Shown: positions 5,619 to 50,122 of the stretch, piece by piece | Position numbering within the stretch: the stretch's first letter is position 1 | How the letters are laid out: every line of letters starts with the position of its first letter | Origin: Paramacrobiotus metropolitanus | Taxonomy: Eukaryota > Tardigrada > Eutardigrada > Parachela > Macrobiotidae | Assembly: GCF_019649055.1 (NCBI RefSeq) | Contig: NW_026570250.1 | Coordinates: forward strand, 682,001-746,000 | DNA length: 64,000 bases | Direction: 5' to 3' | The notes under the pieces: generated by a model | Database searches by the model: none | Told to the model about the DNA's origin: nothing | The model's input: only the letters and a program-made list of their open reading frames with translations | Translations under genes and position numbers: made by a program

Positions 5619-7457
5619 TCATAGATCTTGAATGTTGCCGTGTATGTTATTGTACCACACCATAAGGGGATCATTTTTATCCACATCATGAGGCTTGTAA
5701 AGCACATAAACCACTTTCCAATCCTCCTGCCGTTGTGCGCCTCCTCTGGACATGGCTTTTTTTGACGCTTCGTTCTCTTCCCAGATGAACATAAAGCTGG
5801 TTTCCTGTCCGATATTCTGCAAATCTTTCGCACTGTGCCACATTAATTTACTTGCCAAACCCTGACCACGAAACTCCGGTTTAACAAATCCCGCTGACAT
5901 GGCCATATCGGCACTGATTATTCCGAAACCTATGAGCTGCCCGTCTTTATATGTGCCAATCATTGGAAAATGGTGGTCGTGAAGGTGATAAAGATATTGC
6001 AGTGTTTCACCGGTGCCGGCACCGTAACGCCACAGTGTGCTCAGTGTCGGCATATCTTCGCGATCAGGCCGACGAAAGGTGATCCCGTCTGGTGATGCAG
6101 GCATCGGAATCCTACAGTCGACTACATAATCATCATGTGCATTTTAAAACCACAAACTATTTAGTCAAAATCGCATAAATTTGGCAAGTCTGTCGGTATC
6201 GTTTTCTTTTGCTGACTTTTTCGACATGCTGTGCCGCCCGCTTTAATTAGTAGCACATCTACATAATAGATTATATGTTGCTGCATTCTTTTATAAATTT
6301 TTCAAGTATCAGTCATTCATGCAGCTGTATTAAGAGATTGCTTGTATGTTTTGTTTACGCACTTGCTAACTTCCGCGGGAATAACAATCCAACCGGTAGC
6401 GGTGAAATCCGCATGTTGCTTTGGTCCTATAGCGGAACCGCGTTTGCTGCACACTTCTTCCAGCACCGGGAGAAGATTTTCTGGAATCGCTGCAATGCAT
6501 ATTAAAACGTAAGGTTATACGCAATTAAACTGCACATATTTACACGTGAAAAATGAACCAACATATGGATGACAGAGCTTTTACCTTGAAAGTAGCCGGC
6601 TGCTTTCCAGTTTATCGCATCCTGTTGGTCCAGTAATGTCCGGAAATTCTCCACGTCCGTGACAACCGCATTGTACATGTAGTAGCTTCGTCTGGGAACG
6701 TAATCCTGCAAACTGAGAAGTTTTAATGTGGGAGACACATTAAGACATGTCTGTGCTTCAAAGCGTACGTTTTGATAGTTAATTATCGGATATCAGTACA
6801 TTTACACTGGTTGACAAATAGCTCGGCATACCAGTTGCTAAAATAACTAACACAGCATTTATTGATTTTAACAGAAAGTTTATGCAAGCAATTATAGCTG
6901 TTTTAATCACGTACGTACTTCATGAAGCGGAAGCCGTTCTTGCTGCTCAGGGTTCTGTGATGGATGTTTTGGGCTTGGTCGGACTAAGCAAGCAGTAAAA
7001 TTTGGGAACCGGTCTGCAAATCATGCGCAACATATATCAAAAAGTTTTTAATTTGGCAGCCTAAAACAGGCTAATGTTTGCACATTGGTGACGCAACAAC
7101 AGGTTGCTGCGTACGCAATTTGCGCAGCCGTCATTATTTCGAACGTTTGCATTTGTTATTGTTCAAGTCAAAAAGTACCAAAATCTGACATTTTGTTTCA
7201 GTTTAAAGTTTTAAACAGGCACGGCAGTCATTACCGACCACAAAATCCAGCCCTGGCCATGCGAAAGAATTTCTCTTTAAATGGTTCTCAGCGAGTTTCA
7301 AAACCTGTATGGAAAACAGAAATTTAAAAGTGATGTGACGTCGTTGTAAAGTTGCTGCTTTAAAAATTAAAGGTTAACTCACAGGATACGACTGTGGCAG
7401 CAGACGTTTAAGCTCCGCAACAAACTCCGTCAACTGATCATCATTTATTATAACCAT
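5619..7457 (-). CDS. Glycine N-acyltransferase-like protein, copy A
   Basis: GNAT-fold acyltransferase of the GLYAT/GLYATL type, expected to transfer an acyl group from acyl-CoA to glycine or another amine. Exons read on the minus strand: 7383-7457 (start, MVIINDDQL), 7235-7304, a short exon I could not place, 6585-6705, 6363-6489 and 5619-6111. The N-terminal half carries the family pattern FAWPGLDFVV and YYMYNAVV...INWK. The last exon has the GNAT acyl-CoA loop in GFVKPEFRGQGLASKL (RxxGxA-like) and a C-terminal NDPLMVWYNN motif. It is paralogous, exon for exon, with the gene at 8181-9775: both have 75-nt first and 70-nt second exons. Substrate is unknown. The uncertain third exon is the weak point of the model. 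Confidence 0.75.
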
Positions 7458-8180: not shown

Positions 8181-9775
8181 TTAATCAGCAGATCTCCTTC
8201 CATAAATATTTCGGTACCACACAACCAGAGGATCATTCATATCGGGCTGAGCGGGCTCATAATGTAGGCTGGTCACTTTCCAATCCCTGATCTTTTCACC
8301 TCCGATTCTAACTACTGATTTCTCCGATGAGAGATTGTCCTCCGCCACGAAGAGCGGAATGACATCGTGTCCCAGAGCCTGCATCTTCTTGACGAGATCA
8401 GCCAGAATCAGAGTGAAATAACCGTGTCCGCGGTGTTCAGGTTTAACAAAACCGGCTACGATGCACATCTGGGCACTGCAGAATGCAAACCCAATCAGAT
8501 CGTTCTGTGGGGAGTACATGCCGGTCATGGGAAAATCACGGTCATGCAGGTAGCGCATGTATTCAACAGTGTCGCTTGTGCCGCCGCCGAAATGCCAGAG
8601 CTTGGCTACTGTTTCCACATCTTCGCGGGATATCTGGCGAACGCTGTATCCATCAGGGACAGAAAATGAAACACTACGACACAAAAACGGTTCTGGTTAG
8701 ATTTATGTAGCTGTTGTGGTCAACAACAACTAATCACCACTAACTTCAGTGAAGCATTTGCTGCTTTGACAAGCCATCCAGTAGATGCGAATTCTGGATG
8801 CGTTTCCGTGCCGATGACAATTCCGAACTTAGCCCCGACTTCTTTTATAGCGTTTACAAGGTTTTCAGGAACAGCTGTAAATTTGAAATTAAAACTAAAA
8901 CTCTCGAATAAAACAAAGGTAATTACCGTGCCGTGCCTAACATTTTTGTTAATGTTATTTTTTTGCATTATATCTATATCACGAGCTGCTGCAAAAACAC
9001 CGTAAAAGTTTATCAGGCACGTTGATTAATATTAATTCCCTACTTCAGATACAATAATTATAACAGAAATGTTATATGCACCTTGAAAGAAACACGAACG
9101 CGTCCAGTTGATAACTTCCGGTTGCTCTAACAAGTTCTTGAAACAACATTCATCGCTGGCAACGACGTTATACATGTAGTGATTCCGTCGAGGAATGTAA
9201 TCTGTCTATACCACACCGATTCCGGTTACTTAACAAAAAAGTGTTCTACTTCTAACCGTTACCGGCATCTACATCTCGTTGTGGATTTCGTTCTCACATT
9301 TTCTCCAGGTTTCGGCCGAACCACACAAGCGGTAAATTTGGGAAATCGGTCTGAAAGGCATAGGTAAAAATATTTGATAAGGCTTTATGTGCATTTTGGC
9401 ACTTCCTGCATACACAGCAAACTGTGATCGGCAGTGATCCCTAAAGATCGAAAAATCATAATAATTACCAACCACGAATTCAATCCCTGGCCATGCAAAC
9501 GCATTCTTTGACAAAAGATTTTCAGCCACCTTCAGAATCTGCAATAATAATTAACACGAATGTACCAATCCTTGCACTGCGGACCGTTACAGCCGAGAAC
9601 TACAATTTGATGCACCGTGCATACTCGTGTACGGTATTCATCACGACCCAAATCCAAAAAATGTTTTAGCAATATAAAAAAGCACGTCTCAAGCTCTCAC
9701 CGGAAATGATTGCGGGAGGAGGCACTTCAGCTCTTGAATGAGCCGCATTAACTGATGCTCCTGAATAACTAACAT
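8181..9775 (-). CDS. Glycine N-acyltransferase-like protein, copy B
   Basis: Tandem paralogue of the gene at 5619-7457, in the same orientation. Exons: 9701-9775 (start MLVIQEHQL, ending LLPQSFP), 9469-9538, an unresolved short exon, 9082-9205, 8745-8874 and 8181-8673. Shared landmarks with copy A are FAWPGIEFVV, HYMYNVV...VINW, ASTGWLV and GFVKPEHRGHGY, the last being the acyl-CoA-binding loop with His in place of Gln. The C-terminus carries NDPLVVWYRN. The two proteins are clearly diverged, so this is an old duplication. The exon-4 acceptor could be at 9205 (TAG/ACAGAT) or three bases further in; the first keeps phase with copy A. Function is inferred from family only. Confidence 0.75.
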
Positions 9776-21503: not shown

Positions 21504-22854
21504 TTACACCGCAGTCGTTCGGAAACCGGTAGGCATTCCCAGCCGGCGAATTATAGGCAGTACATCAGCTGCCGTTACTACAGCGTTATTTTTGGTCACA
21601 GAAGTTTTCCTTCGGGCGTTTCTTCCTTGTACTCGTGGAGGAGGTGTCAGTGCTCCTGTCTGTATTATTTCTAAGAACCACTGTCGGAAATCCTCGTCCC
21701 GGGCGTAATTGGCGCTCTGGATCTGTTTCCCCAGCAGAAGGTCATACGCATACGCAAAAGCGTATACCAAGCAGTTGTTACTGCCGGGAGACTGGGCGTA
21801 CACAGGGACGTATTCGATGGCCACCTGGCCTTTGGTCTCGGGATAAGAGAAAAGGAAGTTGAGTTGCAGTTTCAAAGCATCGGTGGGCATTTGACCGGTG
21901 GAACAGTATATTCGCACCACGCCAGGGTTTTGAGAATTAAAGAAGGCGCAAACATAATGATTGTCACCATTGCACAGCGGCTGTACGATAATACCTCCTT
22001 GCATGCGGACATGGAAACGAACCCTAGCGTAACACTGGTCGTTATGCTGGCACAGAGCTAACTCTGCAGGAAGTTCTAGCCCGCCTCTTTGAGGAAATGC
22101 ATTGCGTAGCAGATAAACACCTGCGTTGAGTAATCTCAGCTCCAAATCCGAGCCGAACGTTTTCAAATTGTTGATGTCCTCGCGAAGCACCACTAATTCT
22201 TCCCCGAATCGGTGTACGACTTCATTTTGACCATCCGCATGTGCCTCAAGTATCCGAACCGCACGCAAAGCGGGCGTTTCTCCTGGACGCGGCGGACTGT
22301 GGGGTATCCTGGCCGACTTCCGCCGCGGCATGCCGATATCGTTCCTTCTTGCCGAAGGATTGTTCGAAGCAGCGGGAGCCGGTGTTTCGGCTGGCTGGGG
22401 TGTGGCTTGGACTGGCTGTGACGACAGTACGGCTGTCCGATTAAATCGCTGATGGCGCCTTCCTTCCGACGGCCGACCGCGGGGCTTAATGGTTCCGCGA
22501 GGTCTGACTTTAAACGTCGGAAAATCAGGAGCGACAGAGTTGCTGACGGCAGGAGGCTCTAGCTCTGGCAAATCGGCTTCTTCGGCGGCTTCTTCCGCGG
22601 CTTCGGGGATGTTTGGCCGCTTTGGTGATGTTTCAGGTATCTATTCCTTAGCCAACAAGTCAGGGTGACTAATTACCGGCACAGCTCCACTTCGCACTAT
22701 GTCCAGGTATTGCTGCAAAGCGGCTATGTGCACTTTAAACTCCACCGCTCCAAATTTTGCTAACTCAGTGGCGATCTCCTTGCAGTGCAACAGCAAAGTC
22801 GTGCAACCAATGTTTTAATCATAGATTAAACTAATCTACAGCAAGACTTTCCAT
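21504..22854 (-). CDS. Ulp1/C48-like cysteine protease domain protein, probably transposon-derived
   Basis: A long open frame (21504-22571 and a little upstream) encodes a Pro/Ala/Arg-rich N-terminal part and a C-terminal domain like the Ulp1-type proteases carried by some DNA transposons. The pattern is His in HYVCAFF, hydrophobic-Tyr in VRIYCS, then Gln and Cys in YAQSPGSNNCLVYAFAYAYD. The Asp normally following the Tyr is replaced by Cys. A coherent model is 22840-22854 (ATG), 22677-22778 and 21504-22640: 417 residues, introns of 61 and 36 nt, with a TATA-like TATATATAAAAAGG on the minus strand at 22911-22924, about 60 nt upstream of the ATG. The 36-nt intron is needed to skip an in-frame TAG. 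If it is not real, the gene is broken. It lies inside the Smurf gene on the same strand. A domesticated or inactive transposon gene is likely. Confidence 0.5.
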
Positions 22855-33929: not shown

Positions 33930-36313
33930 ATGATGGCTCTGATCAAAATTAAAACATTTCCCTTATCCATTTTTGCGTTAGCGATTATTTTGAAATGGGC
34001 AGGTAAGCCATTGCAAACCATCATCAGTAAAGTACAGAAATATCGTATGTTTTTGGTGCTTATTCATTCCTTGTGCACGTGCAATTTTTCTACGGCAGTT
34101 AAAAGCATCGACAAGTGTACAAACCTTTAACGTCGTCACTATCTTACAAGACGCGAATTAAGGTTTTCGTGCCCATTCGATATAGATATGACATGTTTAA
34201 TCTGGAATGCTAAAAACGATATTGGATTTTATTTTTATGTAAACGACTTTTTTATTGCAGACTCGCAGCGACATTCCGACCGACATTTAGATGATGGCTA
34301 CGGCGTCACTCAGGATTACGGCAATACATACGCTATCAGCCAGGATCTATATAATCCTGACCAGTACAATAATTATCCCAATCTGCCCATTGGCGACCCA
34401 TCACCGACGCATGCCAGTAACCACGACCCTTATGCCGAACTGCAAGGTACGCGAGAGTCAGAGACGACAGGTGACCAGGATACGTGGGACGGATACGCCG
34501 GCGACCAGGCAGCCACAACGCCGGCCGCGGAACGCCAAACGGCCGGTTACGCGTCGTACGATCCGTACGGGGCGCGAGGATATTCTGGTAACTACGATCC
34601 CTACGGTGGGCGACGAAGCGAAGCAGAGCGCGGTGGGGACGACGGACAAACCGACACCCAGGAAGAGGTGACCACACAAAGCAGCGCTGGAAATGATCCG
34701 TACCAGACGCGGGATCCCTATGCGCAAGATCGCGAACGTAACCAAGCAGGTGGATCCGATTCTGATGCCGAAAGAAATGCAAACGTTAACAGGTGCATTC
34801 AATATGTGCAGTACAATTACTGTCAGTTAGAAAAACCACCAATAATTATGTTTGTAAGTTGCAACATTTGTTCAATAAAATTTCCCCGCTCAAGTAATAC
34901 AGCAAACAAGGATGATAGTATGTACGACATGTATACGTATCAGATAATTAAGTATATTACCGCGGACATTTATCTCATATAAAATATTATTGTTTTAGAC
35001 GTCATAAAGACAACAACGGTAGCGCACCAAATTTTTTCTAGTACGATACAAATACTTATACAAGTACCTATGAATCGAAAGTAAGTTAAGTCCCATAATA
35101 CCGTTAATGCATTCTAGATCATTAGACGTCTGTTATCATCTAAAAGAGAAAATAATGGTTACCCTACCCACTTCTGATGTCATGTAATTATATCCGCATA
35201 TTTATGATGTTCTACAGGGATAATTACAACACGGTGGATCCCTATGCGTATGCAACCACCACAGCGATTCCGTGGGTGGGCAATTACGGCGATCGCCACA
35301 CCCAAGACCAAAGCGTTTCCGGTGCCAGCGGATACAACCCATATGCAACCGGCAGGCAGGCGGCTTCCGGTAGCAGCAGTGGTAGCAGTTACGATCCGTA
35401 TAACCGAGATACCGTTGACCGGCAATCAGCGACACCGGAACCGTACCAGTACCCCGAAGCCACAACGTCCGGCTATGACCCGTACGGGTCAGTAGCAGCC
35501 ACTCCTTACGATCCCTACGCAAGCTATCGGACGAGTGCGTCGAACTACGATCACTACGAAACCACGACGCAGAATCCCTATGACAACAGTTACTACCAAA
35601 CACAAGCACCAAACGATAATTACGGCAGTCAGTACGGAAACAATTATGATCCCTACGCCCGCGCTTATGAAACCACGACGATAAATTACTGGAACACACC
35701 AAGCTACGCTGGACAGGATTCATATGCAGGACGGTATCAGACCACTACACAGGATTATTGGAGAAATCGCAATTACGGTGGCCAGGTAGAAGCGTCCACG
35801 CAGAGTCCATACCAATACGACCGGCAAACGACACAATCATATTACAGCGGCGGTTATAATTACGGCAACCAAGATGTATACGCAACTCCGAGTCCGTACA
35901 ATCACTACAGTACAGCTACTCCTTACAACGCGTACGGTAACCAGTATTACACAACGCCACGATACAATAGTCAAGGATATGGTAACGGTTACAACGGTGG
36001 CAGTTACAGCAATAATTATGGCAACGGTTATGGTCAAGGCAGCTACTCCAGTTCTAATTCGTATTCTTCGTACGGAAACGGCAATTATGCGGCGACGACC
36101 CCGGCACCCACTTGCATACAGTATAATCCCGTGAGTAATGGCAACGGTGGTAATGGTGGGCACAGCCCGCCAGCGTCCAACTCCGGGGAAAGCTGCTGTA
36201 CATTTTATAGAAATGGTATGACCTGCCAAGAATGTACCACAATACAGGGCAGTTTTTTCGCTCGCCGTACAACTTGTTCTGGATCGTCTTCCTGGTCGTT
36301 TGGAAAGAAGTGA
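33930..36313 (+). CDS. Secreted Tyr-rich [D/N]PY[A/G]-repeat protein with C-terminal Cys motif
   Basis: Exons 33930-34002, 34261-34792 and 35218-36313 join in frame to 566 residues. Exon 1 is a signal peptide (MMALIKIKTF, then hydrophobic IFALAIILKWA). The mature chain is highly biased to Tyr, Asn, Gly, Ser and Thr, with about two dozen [D/N]PY or similar motifs (DPYG, DPYA, NPYA, SPYQ), Thr clusters (ETTT) and a YGNGY/YGQGSY-type Gly-rich stretch towards the end. The C-terminus is a compact four-Cys block starting CCTFYRNGMTCQECTT, the only Cys-rich part. Composition resembles structural matrix, cuticle or eggshell proteins in which Tyr may be cross-linked; that is inference. The end motif recurs in the gene at 38564-38966. 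I know no named family for it. Confidence 0.8.
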
Positions 36314-36616
36314 TAAGACTTTGGAAAGAATCACAACCTGTATTTATGATGTTGCATATGTGCGAGCCACAGACTGGATTTGTGTTCATTACGAATCACT
36401 ACTCTGGTAGTAGACACTTGGTAGCCAATACAACAATGATTTGGTAAACAAAAAGTTTCTTTCTTTTTCTCTCTCTCTGCATTTGCTTTGTTAAAAGTAT
36501 TTTTAAGCACCTTCCAATGATTACAAATTAAAACGAACTAGCTAGAGAACAAGTTTATTTACCAATAGTCTTTTTCTGTAATTCTGCCACAAGAAGTCTT
36601 AACAGTTTTGGTGGAT
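36314..36616. other. 3' flank of the Tyr-rich gene
   Basis: Includes a CT-rich tract near 36457-36480. No gene. Confidence 0.35.
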
Positions 36617-36767
36617 ATGAATATGGAGACCACTTTGTCCTCCCAGGCCGCGGTAGCTGCGAAAATTAGCGACTATAAAAATCAGAAATATTATTTTAGC
36701 GACAATGTTTTCTGCCCCGATCTTGATTCTGAAAAAAATAGTCCTTCACTTGAAGTTGTTCATAATA
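36617..36767 (+). CDS. Possible orphan first coding exon
   Basis: An ATG opens 50 codons (MNMETTLSSQAAVAAKISD...) that end exactly at a good donor, A|GTAAGTT. No continuation exon or family was found. Weak support. Confidence 0.22.
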
Positions 36768-38432
36768 GTAAGTTACGCTGCTTTACTGTATATAAAATTT
36801 AAAAGTGTATAAAAACCTTCATACTCTTAATCTCGATTCATAATTGTCACGGCTTCAATCGACATTATACTGCTTCGAAGTTGTATGAAAACTAAAGATA
36901 GTATAATATTGGTAATCACTATAAAGGCAATAATAGTGTTACTGCATTTCTAAATTAGAGTACTCTGTACATTACTTATGGTTAGATAATCCCAAATTAA
37001 ACATCTTGTACAAAATAAGCGTCAGTCATGATCAAACCCGAAAAACTACCGCTAGTTAAACACCAAATCCGTTAGCGGTTCATAGTTCATAGCTTTTATG
37101 TTCAAGTTCAGCTAACATTTCCTGTACAAGCTGTTTTCTTCCTCGGAAGTCGGAACTGCAATACACTGCACCGCGATACTACAGATACACCGGTACATAA
37201 TGCTCTACATCCCTAATGTTTTTCCCTATAGCGGGAGAACATTCCTGCCCGCCATACTCCAAAACAAGACAAAGACCGACGATATTTGCCAGTGTTTTGG
37301 TTGGTTTTTCAATTTTGTTAGACTATTTGCACAAGGGTACGTTTCTTACAGCAACATAGGTGAAGAAATTAATGGTACTGTATGTAACAGACCTGTGCAG
37401 TTATGGAAATTCACCCACCGTTAGAGGGTTTGGTTTGGAATGTTACTTATTAATATCGAGAATCAGGATACACTGATCGGAACTGCATAACAGCAAACGA
37501 AGTTTCGTATCGGCAAAACATTGGTCTTACAAGCAGCAAGCAACACTGCATACGAACACAGTTTTTATCGCGAAAATCTGCCAAGGCTGGTCTATCAGCT
37601 ATAAGATCTCAGTAGCAACTAGCAAGTAAATTACACATATAACTTATCAAGATTAAAATTTGTTTTTATGCGGAACTTATTTTTGCGGCTAGTTAAGTTT
37701 GACTGTTTGATGCCTCATGGTCAGCAAGCACAACTACCACCGCTTCACTGGGTGTTACATTGCTTATTGTGCAAAATTTGTTCTGTGGGTTGATATTACG
37801 AGCCACGATCTTACCTGTATTTATAAAAAGTGTTACGCTGCAGAAATCAAACGTTCACTCGCATTATTTTGAATTTATGTTGGGATTGAGGCGTGTCATA
37901 TTCATTTACGAGTATGTACACACATCTTTTGCGCTCCTAACCATTGCAAATGTCGTACATTACATACACGGATACATTCAAACGGGTGCTCATATATATA
38001 AAATTAAATAATTAATGATTATATATACTGTCCTCGCCATTGCCCATTAGTATTATTTAGCAGGTGCACCGTGGGGCAGCACTTTTTCTCAATAAATTTA
38101 CTAACAGCATTAAACGTTACATTGGGGCTGGTGATAAACAATTTGCTAAAACGCCCATAACCATGAAACCGTATTGATTGAGATATTGTCGAAGGATTGC
38201 TTACGTAAATTATATATCTATATGTATTGAGCGCAATTAGAAACAACATTGTAGGACAACATTACGACATGGTGTTTTGCAAAACCAAAAGTTTTGGCTG
38301 CATTCAGTGCTGCCACTGTGTGTTCGACCGAGGGAGGCACTATGGAAAATTTTTATCCATCTGATCAGTATCAGAGGTCATGTTGTACAACTACTGTTCT
38401 TCCTTGCACGGCGAATGCAAAACTGAAAAGCG
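36768..38432. other. Intergenic, between the two Cys-motif genes
   Basis: AT-rich, with no gene apart from the MITE relic annotated at 37388-37426. Confidence 0.35.
37388..37426 (+). mobile_element. Relic terminus of the hAT MITE family
   Basis: Starts CAGACCTGTGCAGTTATGG and continues through CACCCACCGTTAGAG, matching the first 40 bp or so of the MITE at 10115 with few changes. No matching right end or TSD was seen, so it is a truncated or decayed copy. Confidence 0.65.
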
Positions 38433-38440
38433 TATAAATA
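38433..38440 (+). promoter_or_regulatory. TATA box for the small secreted protein gene
   Basis: TATAAATA lies 124 nt upstream of the start codon at 38564, which allows a 5' UTR of about 95 nt. The position fits but is unproven. Confidence 0.45.
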
Positions 38441-38563
38441 TTGTCAAGCAAACCCATGCTAGCTGTTGTATTTATATATTGTAGCCTTCTTTTACAGCTA
38501 GCTATTTAGGACACCTGAAAGGTCACATTTATCTCCATCGCATTTACAGTACCGGGAACCAAC

Positions 38564-38966
38564 ATGGTATCATTAAAACTTCTCATAGTTCTGACTGTTT
38601 GCATCACAGGACTTTGTGCACGTAAGTTGTGTATTTTTTGTCACTTTAATTGGCATGCCATGCTCATTGCTCCGATCCTATATTATGTCTGACATTATGG
38701 TCTGTGTGCGAGGTAACCCGAATCATATGGAAAGTTAATGTATATTGCTTTAACCCAACCTGTCTACAGACCCACTCGGAGAAACTGCGTATGCTGCGGA
38801 TGTGTCCAGCTATGCGGACCGTGGCTCCAGCTCTTCTATGAGCGGAGGAAGTCATAGCGACCCGCGTACGAACTGCCGCACATTTCGCAAAGAGGGCATG
38901 AACTGCGAAGAGTGCACTACGCTCGACGGAAACACAAGCAGGAAACACACAAAGTGCAAGTCATAA
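38564..38966 (+). CDS. Small secreted protein with four-Cys C-terminal motif
   Basis: Two exons, 38564-38621 and 38770-38966, give 84 residues. Residues 1-19 (MVSLKLLIVLTVCITGLCA) are a textbook signal peptide. A Ser/Gly-rich linker follows. The C-terminal block starts NCRTFRKEGMNCEECTT and ends KCKS. It aligns without gaps to the C-terminus of the Tyr-rich protein encoded about 2.2 kb upstream, with all four Cys and F, G, M, E, T, T conserved. An intron directly after the signal peptide, in the same phase (1), is shared by both genes and supports common descent. AATAAA at 39033-39038 gives a credible 3' end. Function unknown; it could be a partner or simplified paralogue of the larger protein. 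Confidence 0.8.
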
Positions 38967-39032: not shown

Positions 39033-39038
39033 AATAAA
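39033..39038 (+). terminator. Polyadenylation signal
   Basis: AATAAA, 67 nt past the stop codon of the small secreted protein gene. Confidence 0.55.
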
Positions 39039-39795
39039 TTTACCATTCAACTGCTGACTGGGTGTTTTTGCAAATAAAAACTTGTTTCTTATGATAGGTG
39101 GTTTTCTTGTGAAAGCTATTGATAAAGTTTCTGGCCTAGTTTTTTTCGGGTAAAGAAATTTTTAAAAAATTTCGCTGGATCGGTAAGCTTATTGCACATT
39201 ATAAAAAGTACTGTACCTTCCTGCGATTTCCTTGTATAAGTTATTGTTAGCTGCTATGTACTATAGTGCACCCTTGCCGATTGCGCGATTGCTGTTGCAA
39301 AGTAGATCATGAAATTAATTTACTCACAGGATACATCAGCTGTCATACTTTATCGGTGGACATAAATTCATTTCGAAAGAGAATGCGGTGCAGTGTGCTC
39401 GTGCAGTAAATGTAATTAAAAATTTAAGGTGCGTATTTCTTGACCGAAAAAAGAAATGTGCAATAGACAGCGGCCACAAGGGAAATGCACACCATACCGT
39501 AATTATAGTACTGTGGTTATCGGTGGTGCAGTGAGATGAAAAAAATGAATGAAGAAGCTGCATCACTGCGTTTTGACTACTGTACACGGTCGTGTCTCGC
39601 ACCGAATAAATAATTAAGAAAACTATGCCAATAATGGGATACATTGCGCAGAAATTTATATGTAAGCTAAAGAACGTCGTCTCGGGACGGATATTATGCG
39701 CATCGTTAGATCGTAGATCAGTTGCCGTCATCGATGAGGATCAGCCGCCTCCCTGTAGGCAAATTAGGAGCGTTAGAAGCGTCTGCCTCCATTAA
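39039..39795. other. Intergenic
   Basis: A minus-strand frame (39336-39731) includes one hydrophobic run but has no family signature. It may be the 3' UTR of the GPCR gene. Confidence 0.3.
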
Positions 39796-46782: not shown

Positions 46783-49700
46783 TTACGCCAAAATTGTTCT
46801 GTAATTGATACAACCACTACATTTACAAAAATCGTGCCCAGCTCCGCAATAGCCATAAGGACTACAACAATAAGCGTTTGGACTATAAGGATCACAAACT
46901 GCTTCCGATCCATTAATTTGTGGCGCATTTGGCCCGCATTTGCCGGCAAGGTCCGGCGAGTCGTCCCACGTCCACCACTGTTTCCCTAATATCTTTTTCT
47001 CTTTAAACCGGAAATCTGGCTTTTCTCGAAAATTTACACAACTTGGACAGTTGCATGCATCCGGTTGGTTGCCACAAATTCCCACAGCGGAGCAACAGTA
47101 TCCCAACGGGTCATCTGGATTACAAATGGGTATAATACTGCCATTTAACAACGGTGCACCGTATCCACACCGACCCCGCAACTCGGGTGAACTTTGATCC
47201 ATTGTAAACCAGAGGACTTCCTTCGTCGTCGGTTTAACCGACTTCTCCAAAATTTTCTCGGGAAACCTGGCATAGTTGGTACATTCAGGACAATCACAGA
47301 ACGCCGGTCCCGATCCGCAAAATCCCCATCGTCCGCAACAGGCATAATTGTCATCCCCCGGATCGCACACGGGATAATAACCGTTGATCAACGGCGCGGT
47401 TGGACCACACATTCCCGATTTTGCTGGTGTTTCGGTTGACCACCAGCGCGGTTCATAACAAAAGTAATTAGGAATCTCGAGCGGTTTATCTGATAATCGT
47501 GGAGCACAAATATCCCCATGGGTCACCGTTTGCAGCATTGTTAAATCACTGTCATCCTGATCGATAGCCCATATCATGACGCCACCAAGGCGCTTTTTGA
47601 TGGCGTATTCCACTTTCTTTTCTAAGCTCTCCGTGGACTCATAACCAAGGTATTTACGAGAATTTGCGTTCCATGCGTAAGACGCCTCCGCTTTACTGTT
47701 ATATCCGGGCATAAATCCTTTATCCAAATAGCTCTTCTTAATAGTGTAAAAGGGCACATCTGCGCCTTCCGGGCCAGTGGAGGTTCTCCACATAGGGTCA
47801 CCTTTATTGACAGGTTTATCCATAACATTACTCCATGTGCGTCCATAGAACGGAACACCCAGTGCAATTTTCTTAGGATCTTTAATGGCGCACATATAAT
47901 ACTCCATCGTCCAGTGGACATTTAATTTCCGAGAATAAGCCGGAATATGAGACGCGGCAAAAAACAACGGCGCAGGAGGCCCTGTGGCGTTCGACCATGG
48001 GCCGTAGTAATCATAAGTCATCACATTTACCCAGTCGACGGTATCACCTTCCAAGAGATTTTTTAAATCGTAGCCTTTACGGAGATCTTCCGAACCGGCA
48101 GCACCTGGCAAAAATGACACCCATGACGTCTACAGTAAAATAGTGTGTAGACAAGTGTACAAATACTTCTACTGTATTTGTTTTCTATGCCGCTTTACGG
48201 TTAATTTACACGGTACGATTGACGAAGTATAAAAGAGCCGCCCATCTGTTATATATTATGATCATTCTCTGCAAATATTTGATACGGCCGTACTACGATT
48301 AACATTTCAAAAATCACAAGAAACAATTAAATATTTAAATACTCATACTTTGTACTCGTATTTCAATAAGTATTTTCACCGTGTATGCAACGTCTGAGAA
48401 AGACGACTTAAGAGATTTCTTTCCACTCCGGAAATCAAAATTTTAAAATACCGATGCATATCGATAGTAGATAAGTGTAGCATAAGACTACGGTTTAAGA
48501 AATTGTTATGTAACAGCGGTCAATCGCTGAGCGTGACATTTCATTGATTCAGTAATTCTGGATCTCCTCAAAGTCTGCAAAACCGGCATTTACCAGATTA
48601 AAGTTGAAAAAAACTGATGACATGTTTACCTGCAAAGGTCAATAACAGCCGGGTTCTGTTGGCTGCTGACCTCCAAGAGTCGAGCTTTTTCCTTAACCGC
48701 CGCATAAACTTAACATACAGCGCCTTGTCGTCCGGTTTCGCTCCCGGATGCTCCCAATCGATATCCACTCCGTCCAGATTGAACTGCTCAATAAGGCTTT
48801 TCAGATTTAAGGTGAAGTTGTTGAATGCTTTGTCTAGGCGCACAATATCGTCGAAAAATTCCGCCTTTCCATAACCCCCAACCGATATAAGCACCTTGGG
48901 ATTCGGGCTGTTTCCACGCATTTTCATGAGATTCCGCAGGCGCAAGGTTGAATTGTCTGCTATCCAGAGTGTCCCGTTTGGACCCATATCCGGAAATGCG
49001 TAGTTCACATGGGTTAAGGACGACAGCATTTCCTTTGTCACTTCTTTGGCACCCCACGATGTGTAATAGCCCACAACCCGCAAATTACATCGTTCGACCG
49101 ATGTTCGATTAGAATAGCTGACCAGAAATTGGCGCGTTTTAGTTATTAATGCATCGGTGTCCGACAGCCCCAGGGCAAGATCGTTTACTGCCAACTGTAA
49201 ATCTTGTAACGTTGTCTTTCCCGATATTAACATTGATTTTAGTGTCCGGAAATATTCTTCGCTTTCATACAAATTTTGCAGGTCGAAATTACCCCAAAAT
49301 GTCTCGTTAAAGATGCTCCAAAATTCCGAACTTGTCGGCTCTGATCGATTCGTGTTCGGGCTGCAGGAATCGTTATTCGCCGCGGAGGAAACGGTTACGT
49401 TAATGGTCAGTTGGGGACTGATAAAGTATGTGACCGTTGACGAATAACCAGCTGCAAAAAACATTTTGTGAGAAATTTACGATATATATGTTGAGTATGA
49501 AAATACTTCAACGTGCGAGACGACAAGTGTCTCGCTTTTGCCTTACGGGTAGATGTTGGCGCTGCAACGTTCGGTTGTGTAATGGATCTGGATCCAGGAA
49601 ATGCGGTGTTAGTGTAGTTCTTCATTGGAAGGCTCGTCGTAAACTTAGAGGAAATCTTCGAAAAGTGGTCATCAGCTATGCGGGATAATTGTGCTGCATG

Positions 49701-49910
49701 TGATAATACTGTAGATAAAAACTCCAGACTCGTGTTCCCCTCAGGGAATTTCTGACTCTGTGCCGGATCCAGTGAATCAGATATCGGTTCGGAACCGGGT
49801 CCCAAAAAGTTTCTGTTGCTTGTATCAATAATGCCGGCATATGCTACACAAAACAATGCAACTCCACCATAAAACAAAACATGGAAAACAGATTGTCGTA
49901 CCCGAATCAT
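46783..49910 (-). CDS. Secreted GH18 chitinase with three hevein-like chitin-binding modules
   Basis: Exons 49547-49910, 48630-49451 and 46783-48104 join in frame to 835 residues. The start chosen is the ATG before a signal peptide (MIRVRQSVFHVLFYGGVALF, then CVAYA). A Ser/Thr/Asn-rich, N-glycosylatable extension of about 220 residues precedes the GH18 barrel. The barrel starts LRVVGYYTSWG and has KVLISVGGYG, the catalytic DGVDIDWE (near residue 350), VNVMTYDYYGPW, ALGVPFYGRTW and GGVMIWAIDQDD. Three tandem Cys-rich modules follow (about residues 630-830), each of the form CGPxAPLINGxxPVCDPxxxxYCCSxxGxCG, resembling ChtBD1/hevein domains. The catalytic Glu is present, so activity is expected, on cuticular or dietary chitin. 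A TATA-like box lies at 50123-50132. Confidence 0.92.
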
Positions 49911-50122
49911 TTCGGTAGCTGCTTTTACTTTGATTCGCCTATTAAGCAACCTCCAACATCGATGCTTGCGCAACGGCTTCCGCCAGCTGACTGGAATTTT
50001 GGGGCAAAATGCAAATTAAATCAACGGAATTCGACAACCATTCTACAATTTGTAAAATAAAACTGCATCCAGTGACTGTTCAGTTTCTAAACTGATGCGA
50101 ATAATAGCCGGATGTAATTCAT

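Follow-up and report, generated by a model that had tools for sequence, protein, structure and literature searches.

The pharyngeal cuticle of nematodes is built by secreted low-complexity proteins, and those of the APPG and IDP families of C. elegans combine a signal peptide with a compositionally biased, disordered chain, some families being Cys-rich (PMC9629831). Trematode eggshells contain Tyr-rich vitelline proteins that are likewise secreted, in most trematodes lack Cys and consist of about 12-15% Tyr (PMC11727788). Among small extracellular folds, the N-terminal part of the VWC domain and the pacifastin module have three short antiparallel strands and a few disulfides.

Two adjacent genes of the tardigrade Paramacrobiotus metropolitanus, here called A and B, invite comparison with all three. 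They lie in a window of 64,000 nucleotides, the whole stretch of DNA that was analysed, and a literature search found no description of the two proteins. Like the APPG and IDP proteins, their products begin with a putative signal peptide, and that of A includes a biased, apparently disordered chain. The nematode families, however, are multi-gene and come with expression and localisation data, whereas A and B are only two genes; no match at sequence level is claimed, and A and B differ further in having a chain rich in Tyr and nearly all of their Cys within a C-terminal block. The chain of A, at 14.7% Tyr, is close to the trematode vitelline proteins in composition, but these belong to a different phylum and a Pfam scan of A and B returned no trematode eggshell domain; the likeness is one of analogy, not of homology. 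The block, in turn, is predicted to share the three short antiparallel strands of the VWC and pacifastin folds, from which it differs in the number and spacing of its Cys residues (C-x8-C-x2-C-x13-C) and in giving no profile match.

Two adjacent genes and a Tyr-rich chain

Gene A (33930-36313) has three exons separated by GT-AG introns and encodes 566 amino acids, and gene B (38564-38966) has two exons and encodes 84 (Table 1). Both N-termini are hydrophobic and signal-peptide-like in shape (FPLSIFALAIIL in A, LLIVLTVCITGL in B), as the original prediction had it, and in both genes a phase-1 intron does fall just after this sequence, splitting the codons G|AC in A and C|AC in B. In secreted proteins of animals generally, phase-1 introns are over-represented where the signal peptide is cleaved (PMC1626468), and this common feature therefore says little about a common origin.

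Table 1. Features of genes A and B (positions in the window)
Feature	Position	Strand	Description
Gene A exon 1	33930..34002	+	Signal-peptide-like N-terminus MMALIKIKTFPLSIFALAIILKWA; phase-1 donor at end
Gene A intron 1	34003..34260	+	Phase 1, GT-AG, 258 bp
Gene A exon 2	34261..34792	+	First half of chain: acidic, rich in Tyr/Gly/Ser/Thr/Asn
Gene A intron 2	34793..35217	+	Phase 2, GT-AG, 425 bp
Gene A exon 3	35218..36313	+	Remaining Tyr-rich chain, C-terminal Cys block, stop codon
Gene A Cys block CCTFYRNGMTCQECTTIQGSFFARRTTC	36194..36277	+	Strict motif; predicted three-stranded beta meander
Possible TATA box TATAAA	38433..38438	+	Start codon of gene B lies 131 bp downstream; matches the consensus only
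Gene B exon 1	38564..38621	+	Signal-peptide-like MVSLKLLIVLTVCITGLCA; phase-1 donor at end
Gene B intron	38622..38769	+	Phase 1, GT-AG, 148 bp
Gene B exon 2	38770..38966	+	Ser/Gly linker, Cys block, stop codon
Gene B Cys block CRTFRKEGMNCEECTTLDGNTSRKHTKC	38874..38957	+	Strict motif; predicted three-stranded beta meander
Possible polyadenylation signal AATAAA, gene B	39033..39038	+	Second at 39073; consensus matches only

Of the codons in the gene A reading frame, 72 specify Tyr (TAC/TAT) and none is TAA or TAG, the sole stop being the terminal TGA; at the base composition of exon 3, the probability of a 364-codon open frame is near 10^-7. Most of the protein is an acidic chain (residues 25-500, net charge -31), interrupted by the phase-2 intron and containing 12 [D/N]PY motifs at irregular spacing and 17 PY. 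It had been described as a 500-residue [D/N]PY-rich part of a repeat protein; the richness in Tyr and in the motif stands, while the length comes to some 476 residues and the chain is compositionally biased, not a regular repeat. A genome search with the chain returned only the chain itself, and in character it also resembles phase-separating low-complexity chains with other roles. Two extra Cys residues, C501 and C529, occur in A. The protein ends in SFGKK before the stop (window 36284-36310), a sequence that would read as an amidation signal once its basic residues were trimmed, though possibly by coincidence. The gene B protein lacks the Tyr-rich part, and thus a matrix role common to A and B is not required.

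Other loci of the window have features of their own. A GH18 chitinase (46783-50015, minus strand) carries Cys-rich repeats at its C-terminus, one of which scores as Chitin_bind_1 (hevein-type, PF00187) with an E of 2.2e-8, a domain that is associated with plants and fungi. A 378-residue ORF (21504-22640, minus strand) containing SPGSNNCLVYAFAYAYDLLLGKQ recalls the Ulp1/C48-type proteases of mobile elements and gives no Pfam match at E 0.001, and a pair of neighbouring ORFs (5619-6143 and 8181-8696, minus strand), which encode GNAT-type acetyltransferases similar to each other, is probably a tandem duplicate.

The C-terminal Cys block

The two C-termini share a block of 28 residues that aligns without gaps, with 13 of the 28 identical and four Cys in the block of gene B, and conforms in both proteins to the pattern originally proposed, C-x-T-F-x3-G-M-x-C-x-E-C-T-T-x2-G-x8-C, which occurs exactly twice in the six frames of the window. 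The best ungapped score between the blocks is 84, compared with a mean of 26 and a maximum of 55 among 2000 shuffles (Gumbel p ~6e-8). When the Cys residues are held fixed, nine non-Cys identities remain against 2.2 expected, a number equalled in 5 of 200,000 shuffles. Six-frame searches of the whole genome (169.8 Mb, 533 contigs) with block A found only block A and block B (E 8e-4), and those with block B likewise found only the pair, whose members lie 2.6 kb apart. Both blocks are cationic, with net charges of +4 and +3.

Seven of the 13 conserved residues are encoded by different synonymous codons in A and B, indicating that neither gene is a recent copy of the other. The linkers give no convincing alignment and the middles of the two proteins are divergent, which, together with the synonymous divergence, would fit purifying selection acting on the block. 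Judged by these comparisons, the block is a homologous unit in two secreted-type proteins and not a chance likeness, and A and B are most simply read as products of an old tandem duplication in which the block stayed under selection.

The original prediction envisaged a multi-gene family. Genome-wide, the same spacing and intron phase were found only in the adjacent pair: block, full-protein and pattern searches of the genome gave no convincing third copy, nor did a scan of 224 kb comprising the window and 160 kb of flanks. These genome searches were six-frame, exon-by-exon and pattern-based, and strongly diverged members could escape them. The pattern GM.C.ECT gave four matches, namely the pair and two short frames broken by stops. 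F...GM.C..C gave 22, compared with 11 in a reversed control, and 19 of the 20 matches outside the pair were discarded. The remaining match, a single-exon ORF at C147:49582-49779 (minus strand) with a signal-like start (MFSFAVFLFIFTTCSLDSVVNEDQNDLLCLRTFMPFGMRCCSC) and no intron seen, carries CLRTFMPFGMRCCSC / CLRTFMPFGMRCCSCIRPPHKNQC, a loose lookalike of the form C-x2-TF-x3-GM-x-C-x2-C that differs from the block in its spacing and in lacking CTT. TF...GM.C matched 18 times against 19 in the control, with none convincing among those inspected, and C.TF...G..C matched 48 times against 62, where, of the 19 matches read, none went on to C-x2-C, while one resembles a Kazal-type domain. F...G..C.ECT and GM.C..CTT returned unrelated frames only, one resembling a GPCR N-terminus, and a weak match of gene B to C43:838570 was mainly through the Ser-rich linker. 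A and B are a small orphan gene pair, and a wider family is unsupported within this genome.

Predicted fold and domain comparisons

AlphaFold2, run with a two-row alignment, predicts the same three strands in a beta meander from either query, at moderate confidence (block pLDDT about 75-85, pTM 0.41). The strands are modelled at residues 32-40, 43-52 and 55-63 of gene B and at 30-37, 40-49 and 52-60 of the gene A tail, with the conserved G-M at the first turn and the conserved G at the second. As read from the strand ends of the models, the hairpin register would set C35 across from C48 and C45 across from C62 in gene B, and C32 across from C45 and C42 across from C59 in the tail of A. This regularity, in which the first Cys faces the third and the second faces the fourth, supports a putative disulfide mini-domain. 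The suggestion that the block is a folding unit thus gains from the model, which predicts that the disordered chain ends in a compact fold compatible with disulfides.

The view that no named domain has this pattern was borne out by the Pfam check it had called for and by the PDB. Among Pfam-A profiles, neither the full proteins nor the blocks scored above gathering threshold; a CEBP_ZZ hit (E 0.056, 14.1 bits against a cutoff of 29.8) was dismissed as chance, as was the only PDB sequence match, a fibronectin at E 1.3. Structural comparison of the predicted three-stranded sheet yielded a best E of 0.41 with Foldseek and a best Z of 3.5 with VIA, both non-significant, and the lists held generic beta sheets only, topped by porphobilinogen deaminase and a viral DNA-binding scaffold. 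For a sheet so small, the absence of a significant PDB fold match says nothing about novelty.

Alternative readings and proposed role

The reading preferred here, to which a probability of about one half is given, is that A and B go back to an old tandem duplication and that the block would form a stapled beta mini-domain, which would end a Tyr-rich matrix chain in A and a short linker in B. That the blocks represent a chance or convergent likeness of two unrelated secreted proteins is hardly credible: the lack of a convincing alignment outside the block and the generic nature of a signal peptide with a phase-1 intron (PMC1626468) would suit such an origin, but the shuffle statistics with and without fixed Cys residues speak against it, as do the adjacency of the two blocks and their being the only two matches in 170 Mb. 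Chance, with no homologues elsewhere, had been put forward as one outcome that would overturn the shared motif, and the same figures speak against chance. It is doubtful, too, that the block derives, through divergence and the loss of Cys pairs, from a small Cys-rich extracellular domain already known, such as VWC with its three-stranded N-terminal part or a pacifastin-like module, an origin that would make the pair an ordinary lineage-specific derivative. The predicted three-stranded sheet with C..C in its central strand fits this idea, and VWC and pacifastin-like domains also show C-x-x-C followed by Gly. Against it, no Pfam profile of such families matches up to E 10, and the PDB comparisons gave the chance fibronectin match and no significant fold. 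Membership of the VWC or pacifastin type would call for six or more Cys in the family spacing, and the block of gene B has four.

The small size of B and its net positive, four-Cys C-terminus raise a further reading, in which B would be the precursor of a small cationic peptide for defence or signalling and A a mucin-like or processed precursor with the same active module, the block being the active peptide and the linkers pro-regions. In A, the dibasic ARR of the block and a C-terminal end that could be trimmed and amidated agree with this, and a peptide hormone or an antimicrobial would also be compatible with the Gly-Lys-Lys end and the cationic blocks. Yet B has no dibasic site ahead of its block, that of A sits inside the region predicted to be closed by disulfides, and a long Tyr-rich chain makes an unlikely pro-region; this reading is accordingly regarded as improbable.

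Under the preferred reading of a tandem pair with a stapled module, the block would be a three-stranded antiparallel meander of ~30 residues, predicted to be held by Cys1-Cys3 and Cys2-Cys4 bonds. In A, the module would terminate an acidic, disordered chain of which about 15% is Tyr. Within an extracellular layer, for example the cuticle or eggshell, this chain may cohere, or its tyrosines may be cross-linked (dityrosine or DOPA), and the cationic module may dock or cap it. B would be a short version comprising signal peptide, linker and module, and could bind the same partner and regulate or cap assembly. By analogy with the nematode and trematode systems, gene A probably encodes an extracellular structural protein, a secreted, cross-linkable matrix role in cuticle or eggshell is plausible, and the block may serve as the folding or docking end of A, with gene B supplying the same end in a short, free form. 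A more specific proposal is a long shot: that the block is an undescribed, tardigrade-specific disulfide mini-domain with this strand order and Cys pairing, which would act as the assembly terminus of a Tyr-rich, cross-linkable extracellular polymer, with the short paralogue as chain terminator or assembly regulator.

Orphan pairs of this kind, here secreted proteins that carry an unassigned Cys block, are a type of finding common to any animal genome. A literature search found no description of the molecular makeup of the tardigrade cuticle and ornamented eggshells. Adjacent genes with a common module, carried by a Tyr-rich chain in one and free in the other, would, if the reading is true, offer a simple, testable pair for extracellular assembly.
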